Positions 10,642 to 32,085 of a DNA stretch of 33,547 bases are shown here, one piece after another. The notes beneath the pieces were generated by a model. That model worked only from the letters and a program-made list of their open reading frames with translations. It was not told the DNA's origin and did not search any database. The DNA lies in assembly GCA_029974175.1 (NCBI GenBank), contig JARKSS010000400.1, positions 1-33,547 on the forward strand. Direction: 5' to 3'. The DNA is from Vicinamibacterales bacterium (GTDB lineage Bacteria; Acidobacteriota; Vicinamibacteria; Vicinamibacterales; Fen-181). The position numbers and the translations under genes were made by a program. How positions within the stretch are numbered: position 1 is the stretch's first letter; every line of letters begins with the position of its first letter.

Positions 10642-10763
10642 AGCAGGCCGCTGAAGAACGCGGCCTGAATGGAAAATGCAAAGGGAAGAATGGAAAAACA
10701 CGTCCCTCTTTCATTCTCCATTCTTCCTCTTACATTGCAGGTTTCTTTCTTCAGCAACCTGCT
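10642..10763. repeat. 122-bp nested inverted repeat with internal 7-nt periodicity (MITE/REP-like candidate)
   Basis: Outer arms AGCAGGCCGCTGAAGAA (10642-10658) / TTCTTCAGCAACCTGCT (10747-10763), 15/17. Inner arms AATGCAAAGGGAAGAATGGA (10675-10694) / TCCATTCTTCCTCTTACATT (10717-10736), 17/20. Confidence 0.7.
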
Positions 10764-27211: not shown

Positions 27212-29176
27212 CTATCGCAGGATGCGAGGCGTTCCCACCCTGACCCTGGTGTCGATCGGCGCGCCGTCGCCACCGGAGACTGGCACCGGCACGACCGAGG
27301 CGCGCAGTTCCAGCGGCACGAAGCGCCGCCGTTGGTCGCCGGGCAGCCGCACCACCGCCTCCCGCCACTCACGCTCCACCACTAGGCGGCTCACGACCTC
27401 ACCATCCACGAGCAGCCTGATCACGGCCGGGCCCGCCGGCGAAGACAGGGGGATGGCCACCTCGCGCGCGTCGCCCGGCACGAAGACCTGGGCGCGCCGG
27501 GCCATCCAGCGGAATCGCCGTCCTCCCGGGTCGGTGTGCGTGGCCGAGAACCCCATGACGGCCCGCGACAGGTCGGCTCGACGGAGTTCCGCGCGAGCGC
27601 GCGGGACGGCGGAAAGCACGATGGCGAAAGCGAGCAGCGTGGCGGTCCGCAGGCCGACCGTGAGGACTCGCCGCCGGCGCCCGGCTGCAGCCGGCTCCGG
27701 AGCCTCTTTCCTCAGGGTGGATGCCATTCCCGGGAGCAGGCCCAGCGCCATCCAGAACGGCACGGCGGTTTCGAACACGAGCAGCGGGTGGCCGGCAAAC
27801 CAAGTCAGCACATAGGCGGTCACCCCTCCGGCCAGGCAGGTGAGGAGCGGATCGGAACGCGCCGTGGCCGCAGGGGTAGCGGAGACGACCAACGTCCACG
27901 CCGGCCACAGCACGCACGCGAGCAGCGCGACCAGCAGGCCCAGCCCCAGCAGGCCGAGCTCGGCCAGCACCTGCAGGAAATTGTTGTGCGCGTTTTCGCG
28001 ATACCCCCAGCCGGGCGAGGCATACGCTGGCGAGAGGGCGTAGAAGCGACCCACCCCCACACCAAACACCGGGTGCGCCGCGAACATCCGCAGGGCCGTC
28101 GCCCCTTGCTGAAGCCGCCACTCCAACGCGGTGCCGGCCGGGGTTCGCGGAGTCCAGTGAAGGTAGGCCCCAGCGAGGATGACCAGGCCGGCCGCGCCGC
28201 CGGCAGCGGCCAGCGTCGCGGCGCGGCTGCCGTTCCGGCGCCAGGCGAGCGCCGCCAAGGCGATGGCCACGATCGCGGGTGCGGCCAGGCCGATGCGCGA
28301 CCCCGTCATCCACAGACCAGCCAGCGCGAGGATGCCGGCGACACCCCAGATCACCAGGTACCGGCGGTCTGCGAGAATCAGCCCACCGACGGCGCCCAGG
28401 GCGAGTGCGTAGTACGAGCCGGCGGCATTGACATCCGGACCGACCGAGCTGAGACGCACGCTGGCGATCCCGGCCGGGAAGGCTTCATCCCACCCGGAGG
28501 CGGCCGCGGTCCAAATCACCGTGTAGACCGCTGCCGCGGCCGTCGCTGCCGCGCCGGCCGCAAGCGCCCGGGCGCCCTGCAGTCCAAGACGCGGCCATCG
28601 CCGGGAAAGCACGATGGCAGCCACGAACAGCGCAACCGCCTCGAGCACCTGGAACGCGGGAGTTATCGGCGCCCGAAACCGCGCCCCCGCTCCGGCAGAC
28701 CCGAGGTAGTCGTGCCACAGGAAGCGGAAGAGTGCCCGCAGGTAGGGTGCCGGAAAGTCCACGGTGACGTGTTGCGCGGCCAGGTTCACGGCGAGCGACG
28801 CGACGACGGTAACGCCGAAGAGCGGGGCGAGGCCGAGTGCGAGGTCCGCGGCGGGAGGCTCGTGTCCCGTGCGTACCGCTGCGTGCGAGGCTTCGTGTGC
28901 AAGCCAGCCGGCGAGAAAGGCCAGCACGACCGGCTCGGTGAGGCTCGATGCCGCCCCGAGCCGCGCGGCCGCCAGCGCGCCCAGCGGTGCCAGCGCCGCG
29001 GTCGCCACCCAGCCGGCAGCAGGCCGGAGCGCCGAGACGGCCAGCAGGATGGCCGCGAGCAGCTTCGGGGTCCGGGGGCCCGGGCTGATGAAGACCGAGG
29101 CCAACGGCAGCGCGGCCGCGACGAACGCGAGCGCCTGCGCCCAGAAACGGGCTTGCCCGGGCCTCGTACCTCTCAC
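27212..29176 (-). CDS. O-antigen ligase/polymerase family protein (Wzy/WaaL-like) with extra C-terminal soluble domain
   Basis: Polytopic; TGSRIGLAAPAIVAIALA, HPVFGVGVGRFYALSPAYASPGWGYRENAHNNFLQVLAELGLLGLGLLVALL. GTG start at 29176 overlaps the upstream TGA (GTGA); the track's 29209 start would overlap the upstream gene more. Confidence 0.88.
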   Translation of the reverse strand: MRGTRPGQARFWAQALAFVAAALPLASVFISPGPRTPKLLAAILLAVSALRPAAGWVATAALAPLGALAAARLGAASSLTEPVVLAFLAGWLAHEASHAAVRTGHEPPAADLALGLAPLFGVTVVASLAVNLAAQHVTVDFPAPYLRALFRFLWHDYLGSAGAGARFRAPITPAFQVLEAVALFVAAIVLSRRWPRLGLQGARALAAGAAATAAAAVYTVIWTAAASGWDEAFPAGIASVRLSSVGPDVNAAGSYYALALGAVGGLILADRRYLVIWGVAGILALAGLWMTGSRIGLAAPAIVAIALAALAWRRNGSRAATLAAAGGAAGLVILAGAYLHWTPRTPAGTALEWRLQQGATALRMFAAHPVFGVGVGRFYALSPAYASPGWGYRENAHNNFLQVLAELGLLGLGLLVALLACVLWPAWTLVVSATPAATARSDPLLTCLAGGVTAYVLTWFAGHPLLVFETAVPFWMALGLLPGMASTLRKEAPEPAAAGRRRRVLTVGLRTATLLAFAIVLSAVPRARAELRRADLSRAVMGFSATHTDPGGRRFRWMARRAQVFVPGDAREVAIPLSSPAGPAVIRLLVDGEVVSRLVVEREWREAVVRLPGDQRRRFVPLELRASVVPVPVSGGDGAPIDTRVRVGTPRILR

Positions 29177-30594
29177 GCCTTCTCCCCAATCACCGCGTAG
29201 TCGAGCCAACTGAAAAGCAACCGGTTCAGGGTGTCCACGTTCCGGTTGAACTGCTCGACGACCTCGGCGACAACCTCGCCTTCCGACAGCAGCGTCCGCG
29301 GCAGCCGCTGCAGGCGCGCCTCAGGAGGGTACGGCGAACTGTACCGGATCTCGACGTTGGTGAAGCCGGCCGCACTCACCAGGTAACTGAGCGTCTCGGG
29401 GTGGACCGGCCGGACGTGGGTGAGATCGCGCACGTAGCTCGAGAAGAAGGCGGCCCAGCACGCCACGTTGATGGTCTCGAGCACCACTCGGCCGCCTGGC
29501 CGCAGGCAGCGGTGCGCGAGATTGAGCAGGTGGAGGAGGCGGTCGGGTGGAAGGTGCTCGACGACCTGCCCCGCGAACAGGCCGCCGAGCGACTGGTCGG
29601 CCAGCGCCTCGAGGTGCGCGATGCCGTCGCCTTCGACGACGTCGAGGCCGAGCTCGCGGCATCGCCGCACCATCTCGGGGTTCAGCTCGACGCCGCGCGC
29701 GCGGATGCCGCGCTCGCCCAGCAGGCGCAGCAGCTCGCCGCGGCCGCACCCGATGTCGAGGACGTCCTGCGCCCCGGCGAACAGCGGGACGTAGTCGGCG
29801 TGGCGTGCCTCGATTTCCTCCTGGCTGCCCCGGTAGCAGTCCTCGAACCCGGCGTAGGCCGTCGCGCTCTGCGGTTCGGCCAGGGCGTCGCGCTGCGCCG
29901 TTTCGAGGGAGACGGCTGCGGGCGCCACCGGAGCGACGCCCGGCGGCGGGGCGTCGCGGACGCTTTCGGCGGCACGGCCGCGCATCGCGTCCACGCGAGC
30001 CTCGAGTCGCCGCTGCCGCGCGAGCGCGGCCTCCGTGCGCTTCAGCAGTTCGTCGCCCACCGCGTCGAGGCCGGCGGCCAGGCCGGCGCTGCGCGTCTCG
30101 ATCAGGCGACGAAGTTGCGCAACCTCGTGGCGGTCTTTCGTGTCAACGAACGCGGTGATTCGCTGGAGGTACTGGACGAGGTTCGACTCGAAGCGGGCGA
30201 GGGCCGCGGCTTCGTCGCGCAGGCCGTCCGCCAGGGCGGCCATCGCGTCACGTCCCTGCGAAGCCACCGCGTGCAAGCGGTTCAGGTGATCGACAAGGGC
30301 GGCGTTGAATGCCTGCTGCCGCTGGAACAGAGGAGCGATCACCCGCCAGATCCCCGAGGCGATGCGGCCACGCCAGCCGCCGGTGGCGACGGGCGACGGC
30401 CCGATGATCTCCCAGCCGCTGTTCAGCTCGGCCAGTCGTGTGGCGTCCGGACCAGGCGGGAGAGCCGGGTCGAACGGCGGGCGCGACGCCGCGCGATCGA
30501 CGGAGGTCAGTGCCTCGTTGTACGCGCGGTCGGCCTCGAGCCGCTGCTGGTCGAGCCGCGCCAGGTCCTCTTCCGTGACAGTGATCTTCGCCAC
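29173..30594 (-). CDS. Class I SAM-dependent methyltransferase with long N-terminal helical/coiled-coil region
   Basis: N-terminal ~220 aa rich in A/E/R/L/Q heptad-like helices; C-terminal VLDIGCGRGELLRLLGERGIRARGVELNPEMVRRC, GLFAGQVVEHLPPDRLLHLLNLAHRCLRPGGRVVLETIN. GTG start with GAGG RBS. Confidence 0.88.
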   Translation of the reverse strand: MAKITVTEEDLARLDQQRLEADRAYNEALTSVDRAASRPPFDPALPPGPDATRLAELNSGWEIIGPSPVATGGWRGRIASGIWRVIAPLFQRQQAFNAALVDHLNRLHAVASQGRDAMAALADGLRDEAAALARFESNLVQYLQRITAFVDTKDRHEVAQLRRLIETRSAGLAAGLDAVGDELLKRTEAALARQRRLEARVDAMRGRAAESVRDAPPPGVAPVAPAAVSLETAQRDALAEPQSATAYAGFEDCYRGSQEEIEARHADYVPLFAGAQDVLDIGCGRGELLRLLGERGIRARGVELNPEMVRRCRELGLDVVEGDGIAHLEALADQSLGGLFAGQVVEHLPPDRLLHLLNLAHRCLRPGGRVVLETINVACWAAFFSSYVRDLTHVRPVHPETLSYLVSAAGFTNVEIRYSSPYPPEARLQRLPRTLLSEGEVVAEVVEQFNRNVDTLNRLLFSWLDYAVIGEKA

Positions 30595-30647
30595 CCTGAA
30601 CCTCGTCCTTCTCCCCTGGCCACCGTGTGCCTGCTTGGCTGCCGCAA

Positions 30648-30710
30648 AGGCCTTTCTGCTCTGTCCTTCTCCCTTGTGCCTTCGACCTTGAGCCTTTTTC
30701 TTTCACCCTT
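30648..30710 (-). repeat. Degenerate heptameric tandem tract (AAGGNNN)n
   Basis: Minus strand, in register: AAGGGTG AAAGAAA AAGGCTC AAGGTCG AAGGCAC AAGGGAG AAGGACA GAGCAGA AAGGCCT. The first unit contains the TGA stop of the upstream glycosyltransferase gene. Confidence 0.75.
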
Positions 30711-32085
30711 CGAGTAGGTCCACCCCGACGCCCCACTCCGACGCGATCAGGCGCGCGGCTTCCATTGGATCGGGACGCAGGTGCGCCGGCAGGTCGTGCA
30801 CTCGCGGGGCGGGGCACGCCAGGGCGTGCGCAATCGCCGCGCGGTAGTCGTTCACGGCCGACTCCATGGTGTGGTTGGCCGACCAGCAGGCGCGCGCGGC
30901 CCGGCCCAGCGCCTCGCGGAGCGCCACGTCGTCATGCAGCCGCCGCATCGCCCGCTCGAGTTGGCGCTGCTCGTCGGTGAGGCTCACCGCCACTGACACG
31001 GGCTCGTCCGGCGTGCCGGAACGCGCAAGCGGGGCGGGCAGCACGTCCCACGTCTCCGGGTCGAGCATCCGCACCTCGCCACCGTGGGCCAGATCGGTCA
31101 CCACTGTGGGCTTTCCCGCCGCCAGCGCCCGAAGCCAGGCTGCGGAAGTCTCCCGCCCGGTGGGCCATCGCAGCGACAGGCAGACGTCGCACATCGCCAC
31201 GTGGTCGTCGAGCTCCTCATCCGGGACGTACCCGGCGAAGTGGACGCGGTCGGCCACGCCGAGCGCCTCTGCCTCGGCAGCGGGGTCATAGTGCGCGACC
31301 CTCCCGCCCGCCAAAAGAAGGTGGGTTGACGCCGGCATGGCCGCGAACGCGCGCAGGATGGACGGGATACGCTTCTCGGGCGTGACCAGGCCGTACGCGG
31401 CAAACAGCACCGCGTCGCGAGGCACCCCATACCGGTCTCGCAGCTTGCGGCCGCGGACGGGAGCGTTCCGATCGAGCGGGTCGGGCATCCCGGACCGGAG
31501 GCTCCGCACCATCACGGACGGGTAGTCCTCCGAGAGGTCCTGCGCCAGGCCCGGGCTGTGCACGGCCACCAGCCGCGCCGTGCGGACCACCCAGCGCAGC
31601 ATCGGGTAGAAGTAGTAGATCGATCCCGCCAGCGAATCGATGACGAGCCGCGACACGTCCGGCGGTGCGTCGGGGTGGTTGTAGCGGAACTCGGCGCGGT
31701 ACGCGTCGCGGCCGCGGCGGACGACCGAAGCCGGCGCCCCCTCGGGTGCGGCCAGCAGGAGCCTGCCCCGCGCGTGGTGCAGCTGGCCGTCGTGCAGGAC
31801 CACGAGGCCGGGGTAACGGGCCAGGTGGGGCCAGATGAAGTCGTGGCAGGGTGCGTTGCCCAGCTGGTACACGTTCAGGTCATAGGGCCGCTGCAACTGG
31901 CGCCAAGCGAACTCATGGGCCGGGAAGACCGGGAGAGCCGTGCCGTCGAGGGGTTGCGCGGCCTCTGTCGCGGTGTACACGTCGATGTCGTGCGCCGCGG
32001 CCAGCCGCGGCAACAAGTCGGCGTTGTAGGCCGCGATGCCCGACCGTTCGGGGGGGAGCGGCGTGAACCACGCGAGGCGCGCCAT
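30703..32085 (-). CDS. Glycosyltransferase family 4 protein
   Basis: WFTPLPPERSGIAAYNADLLPRLAAAHDIDVYT, FAAYGLVTPEKRIPSILRAF, HFAGYVPDEELDDHVAMCDVCLSLRWPTGRETSAAWLRALAAGKPTVVTDLAH. Confidence 0.93.
   Translation of the reverse strand: MARLAWFTPLPPERSGIAAYNADLLPRLAAAHDIDVYTATEAAQPLDGTALPVFPAHEFAWRQLQRPYDLNVYQLGNAPCHDFIWPHLARYPGLVVLHDGQLHHARGRLLLAAPEGAPASVVRRGRDAYRAEFRYNHPDAPPDVSRLVIDSLAGSIYYFYPMLRWVVRTARLVAVHSPGLAQDLSEDYPSVMVRSLRSGMPDPLDRNAPVRGRKLRDRYGVPRDAVLFAAYGLVTPEKRIPSILRAFAAMPASTHLLLAGGRVAHYDPAAEAEALGVADRVHFAGYVPDEELDDHVAMCDVCLSLRWPTGRETSAAWLRALAAGKPTVVTDLAHGGEVRMLDPETWDVLPAPLARSGTPDEPVSVAVSLTDEQRQLERAMRRLHDDVALREALGRAARACWSANHTMESAVNDYRAAIAHALACPAPRVHDLPAHLRPDPMEAARLIASEWGVGVDLLEG

Follow-up and report, generated by a model that had tools for sequence, protein, structure and literature searches.

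A degenerate AAGGNNN tract behind a glycosyltransferase stop codon in a Vicinamibacterales genome, probably a decayed intergenic heptamer array of a wider class

The stretch of DNA analysed here, referred to as the window, is the 33,547 nucleotides of contig JARKSS010000400.1 from assembly GCA_029974175.1 of a Vicinamibacterales bacterium. It carries on its minus strand, at positions 30648–30710, a tract of nine in-register 7-mers, most of the form AAGGNNN, which begins at the stop codon of a glycosyltransferase gene. We consider it probable that this tract belongs, in decayed form, to a set of intergenic heptamer arrays spread over the whole genome, made by slippage and tolerated behind the stop codon. 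No function is needed for this particular copy, because it gives no RNA fold, contains no canonical quadruplex motif and is absent from the orthologous spacers.

Read from 30710 to 30648, the tract is AAGGGTG AAAGAAA AAGGCTC AAGGTCG AAGGCAC AAGGGAG AAGGACA GAGCAGA AAGGCCT. Seven of the nine units begin with AAGG, and the column identity is 0.67 at period 7 and no more than 0.55 at the remaining periods from 3 to 12. The glycosyltransferase stop, TGA at 30705–30703, lies across units 1 and 2. In these respects the sequence is just as the initial annotation had read it. The annotation had also placed the start of the tract exactly at the stop codon, which is accurate to 6 nt: unit 1 is still coding (..CTC GAA GGG TGA), and the unbroken array comprises only the five units from AAGGCTC to AAGGACA (30662–30696), the first of which begins 6 nt 3′ of the TGA. 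The stop codon is joined to this core by an A-rich linker (30697–30702), and the two units that follow the core, GAGCAGA AAGGCCT (30648–30661), form a degenerate 3′ end. The purine/G-rich strand of the tract is the sense strand, directly 3′ of the stop codon.

The spacing of AAGG distinguishes the tract from the rest of the window. The pattern (AAGGNNN)2AAGG, with up to one mismatch, has five matches, all of them inside the tract, compared with 0.02 expected from dinucleotide shuffles. Irrespective of AAGG, no other 63-bp segment of the window scores as high as the tract for period 7 (43 for the tract, 40 for the runner-up). It also has fellows in its own assembly (G000: 3.8 Mb, 539 contigs, 83% complete), where exact (AAGGNNN)3AAGG gives five matches at three loci against one for the reversed control, and where a search of the assembly found AAGGCTC-type arrays at dozens of sites. 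AAGGCTC, the first unit of the tract core, is the main heptamer of this genome, the window copy being a degenerate one with a single exact AAGGCTC. Its left junction is like that of other copies, made up of a stop codon, a short A-rich linker and AAGGCTC; elsewhere TAG-A-, TAG-AG-, TGA-AG- or TGA-GAA- stands ahead of the first A(A/G)GGCTC. A period scan of sampled contigs identified further heptamer families in the same genome, namely CAGGGCT, GGGATTC/AGGATTC, GGGGCTA, GGGAGTC and GACAGCN. There are therefore many tracts besides that in the window, and their frequencies depart from the null. The shared class of intergenic element that the initial annotation had proposed exists as a period-7 class, well above null and often starting at stop codons; the tract upstream of pdxA, which had been placed in it, lies outside.

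The pattern of four constant and three variable columns had been taken as a sign that the tract was not a slippage repeat. This does not hold, as the genome also has near-perfect slippage-type arrays (AAGGCTC ×4), and variation crowded into one to three columns is seen in further arrays too. For the five core units the contrast between constant and variable columns is no more than moderately improbable under uniform decay (p ~ 0.012, a post hoc value); among other arrays, column heterogeneity is seen at p < 0.05 in 15 of 45, a count raised by the slippage copying of variant units.

Beyond this genome, (AAGGNNN)3AAGG has a very uneven distribution: 28 of the 60 genomes searched in the order contain it, as do 43 of 199 in the phylum. 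Degenerate AAGGNNN arrays resembling that in the window occur in two genomes of the same family, G001 and G002. The triplet that follows AAGG is specific to the genome (AAGGATG, AAGGAGG and AAGGCGG in G003; AAGGCCC, AAGGCCT and AAGGACC in G002; AAGGGCA in G023), and the units of relatives include others such as TRACGTT and GAAATTT. Counting intergenic arrays at periods 4–12 gave 47 at period 7 in G021, with at most 5 at any other, and 13 against 3 in G003, while 80 kb from each of the array-poor genomes G019, G025 and G029 of the same order held no period-7 arrays. Period-6 and period-8 versions of (AAGGNNN)3AAGG are found in 10 of the 60 genomes each. One relative, G040, is rich in 8-bp arrays of AAGGGATC and AAGGTGAC instead of 7-mers (for example, G040:C7:116089-116172). 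Two members of the phylum are further heptamer-rich genomes: G107 has ~500 matches to the reversed control (GGAANNN)3GGAA, and G217 has hundreds to both this and (AAGGNNN)3AAGG.

The placement of the arrays relative to genes was determined in ~1.25 Mb from five array-bearing genomes (G021, G009, G002, G003 and G000). Genes were predicted by a purpose-written, simple codon-usage caller, giving a coding fraction of ~0.90 with reliable stops and uncertain starts; the G000 contigs had been partly picked for AAGG repeats, not for position or orientation relative to genes. Almost all of the arrays fall within the ~10% of the DNA that is non-coding, and 7 is the prevailing period in these samples. 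Of 122 arrays, 48 have their start no more than 5 nt from a stop codon, compared with 20.4 when arrays are placed at random within their own spacers (0/2000), and a symmetric window from −8 to +5 nt at stops contains 42 against 22.5 expected. At start codons the same 122 arrays show no excess (15 against 13.0 expected). Convergent spacers hold 25% of the arrays in 10% of the spacer bp (p = 7e-6). Among arrays within 20 nt of a stop, the purine/G-rich strand is the sense strand in a ratio of 34:13, and array-free DNA 3′ of stops has no purine bias (~0.5). Where a spacer holds two arrays these mostly face each other, with 11 inverted pairs of type '+-' and 2 of type '-+'. A canonical G3 quadruplex motif is present in 25 of the 122 arrays. 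The other 97 are nevertheless anchored at stops (31 against 19.4 expected, 1/2000), so quadruplexes are not the whole reason for the placement, and we reject them as its general cause.

The window copy itself gave no sign of the functions considered. The RNA fold of its spacer is weaker than that of shuffled sequences (z = +1.56; 192 of 200 shuffles equal or better), and no stable hairpin or intrinsic terminator was found at the tract. Direct reading finds no canonical G3+N1-7 quadruplex motif among the AAGGNNN units of the tract, which offer mostly GG pairs with 5-nt loops. A riboswitch or other known RNA was discounted, there being no Rfam match in the window. Two genomes, G004 and G005, retain the gene pair that flanks the tract, and neither orthologous spacer contains a heptamer tract, which argues against a conserved regulatory element at this locus. 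A generator of stops in all frames, by way of 7-mers containing TGA, TAA or TAG, would fit TRACGTT and CTAGGGG; arrays of AAGGCTC and GGGATTC are stop-free in the sense direction, so this is not a general explanation.

According to the explanation that we favour, the arrays would arise and change in length by replication strand slippage in steps of 7 bp, along the lines of the proposal that PMC4679880 and PMC4692102 attribute to Mrazek et al. 2007, and would then drift by point mutation. They would survive where selection is weakest, that is, right behind stop codons and above all in convergent spacers, which are free of promoters, and the stop codon would bound the array on the gene side; such a cause would give the placement observed.

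Several points weigh against this explanation. Slippage expands a repeat in place, leaving unexplained both the presence of the same unit at dozens of loci and the use of different units by different genomes. The anchoring at stops is sharp, with the excess lying within ~5 nt, and goes beyond a smooth relaxation of constraint. The choice of stop codon is linked to the unit: in G000 the stop at arrays is TAG in 13 of 18 cases, compared with 98 of 285 elsewhere (p = 0.002). The purine bias of the sense strand is left without explanation, and in 64 of 96 arrays (64:32, p = 0.0014) the purine strand points away from whichever gene end lies closest. Period 7 is strongly preferred but is no rule, since G040, with 252 matches to the period-8 pattern AAGGNNNN, mostly AAGGGATC, prefers 8-mers. 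As regards the tract itself, Markov sequence reaches a period-7 score of 42 or more at ~3e-5 per position, or about once per window, and judged without its genomic context the tract would be marginal. Its reality rests on the AAGG spacing and on the fellow arrays in the genome.

It is possible, if unlikely, that the arrays behind stops are functional elements of gene 3′ ends, in which purine/G-rich nascent RNA or DNA (as a quadruplex or R-loop) would pause RNA polymerase and mark the ends of transcripts, the arrays hence being retained in the sense orientation behind stops. The stop anchoring and the sense-strand bias would follow naturally, Rehm et al. (PMC4692102) report for Xanthomonas that quadruplex-capable repeats are more often sites at which transcripts begin or end, and the 25 arrays with a canonical G3 motif fit as well. 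Against this stand the 97 arrays that are anchored without such a motif, the GAAATTT and TRACGTT units, which are not G-rich, and the GG pairs and 5-nt loops of the window tract. Single arrays, moreover, neither substitute for hairpins nor add them: spacers with one array show about the same degree of structure as array-free spacers of their type, and only those with several are clearly more structured. Rehm et al. (PMC4692102) themselves found no regulatory role.

We regard as rather improbable a second alternative, in which arrays are copied between loci by gene conversion, template switching or a templated polymerase, so that few units come to lie at many sites, with insertion tolerated or targeted just behind stops. 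Units that are common to many loci and specific to the genome, the sharp junction at the stop and the predominance of '+-' over '-+' pairs are what copying predicts. No target-site duplication came to light, however, nor any enzyme or mobile gene, and adjoining arrays of one spacer can differ in unit (L079 and L131). We likewise give little credence to the idea that heptamer arrays are generated at stops independently of unit sequence and of G-quadruplexes, the 7-bp repeats being seeded by a process tied to the 3′ ends of genes (translation termination, transcript ends or R-loops) and each genome amplifying its few units. It is very improbable that the tract is purine-rich by chance and has nothing to do with the arrays: its borderline period-7 score and the random look of three of its seven columns would allow this, but the AAGG spacing, the unit, orientation and stop position in common with the genome's arrays, and the similar degenerate arrays in G001 and G002 speak against it.

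The tract upstream of pdxA, which resembles the heptamer tract in period and purine content according to the initial annotation, belongs to another class. It is the purine part lying inside a ~122-bp palindromic repeat that resembles a miniature inverted-repeat transposable element (10642–10763, plus strand), recognised by its paired ends and its fold. The ends are of the form AGCAGGYYGCTGAAGAA, inverted and ~105 bp apart, the repeat being bounded by AGCAGGCCGCTGAAGAA and its inverted partner AGCAGGTTGCTGAAGAA, and it folds into a strong hairpin of −62.9 kcal/mol (z = −4). With up to two mismatches, the AGCAGGYYGCTGAAGAA pattern matches the window only at 10642 and 10747, with none at the heptamer tract. 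Roughly nine other places have similar paired ends at a distance of ~100–105 bp (C110, C133, C277, C391, C406, C464, C491, C498 and C500), making ~10 paired copies in the genome. At L023 (~1463–1600) a copy of the palindromic repeat adjoins a GGGGCTA heptamer array.

The gene upstream of the heptamer tract (30703–32085, minus strand) is an open reading frame of 460 aa with the domains of a group-1 (GT4-type) glycosyltransferase (PF13692/PF00534). It is followed in the same direction by a gene for an S-adenosylmethionine-dependent methyltransferase of 473 aa (29173–30594, minus strand), with a predicted GTG start at 30594. The 108-bp spacer between them (30595–30702, minus strand), in which the tract lies, has no Rfam match and no stable fold. 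The N-terminal DNA of the methyltransferase can be aligned by eye to the orthologues in G004 and G005. At these two loci (L114 and L115) the region at the glycosyltransferase 3′ end, which in the window has the heptamer tract, contains a GC-rich, hairpin-like sequence (GCACGGGCGACC..GGTCGCCCGTGC in G004) as well as GTGAAATCG, present twice.

Why many bacterial genomes gather 7-bp repeats, and gather them behind stop codons, is the question addressed by these data. The finding that units with no quadruplex motif obey the same placement rule speaks against an explanation by quadruplexes alone, and the lineage offers many natural unit variants with which slippage can be tested against function.

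Heptanucleotide repeats are also present in cyanobacteria, where they are called STRR. They are 7-bp tandem repeats like those described here, with other units; a report from Calothrix is cited in PMC4692102. The TAACTGA direct repeats of Beggiatoaceae, Cyanobacteria and Bacteroidetes (MacGregor 2015, PMC4679880) are likewise 7-bp intergenic repeats at many loci, but have one fixed unit and in Beggiatoaceae lie mostly just upstream of start codons. According to the passages that cite Mrazek et al. 2007 (PMC4679880 and PMC4692102), in scattered bacteria the long simple repeats are most often heptanucleotides, and the origin proposed for them was slippage linked to contacts of the polymerase. 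Heptamers dominate in scattered genomes here as well; those passages do not describe placement at stop codons, and one relative here favours 8-mers. The closest parallel is with the quadruplex-forming GGGNATC and GGGGA(C/T)T heptameric repeats of Xanthomonas and Nostoc (Rehm et al. 2015, PMC4692102). The array anatomy is the same, and GGGATTC, GGGAATC and GGGAGTC units are found in the present genomes too. The differences are that the AAGGNNN unit of the window has no regular G3 tracts, that most of the present arrays have no canonical quadruplex motif, that arrays are enriched in convergent spacers here, the emphasis of Rehm et al. being on aligned reading frames, and that the lineage is another. 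The tract shows the features of bacterial intergenic heptamer simple sequence repeats of the Mrazek and Rehm type, namely a 7-bp unit, the occurrence of that unit at many loci and a sense purine strand behind a stop codon. Since its anatomy matches that reported by Rehm et al. 2015, it belongs to a kind already described in Xanthomonas and Nostoc; it is of interest but no new kind of element. What is added here is the lineage, the variety of units, the anchoring at stop codons to within ~5 nt and the persistence of this anchoring in arrays that have no quadruplex motif.
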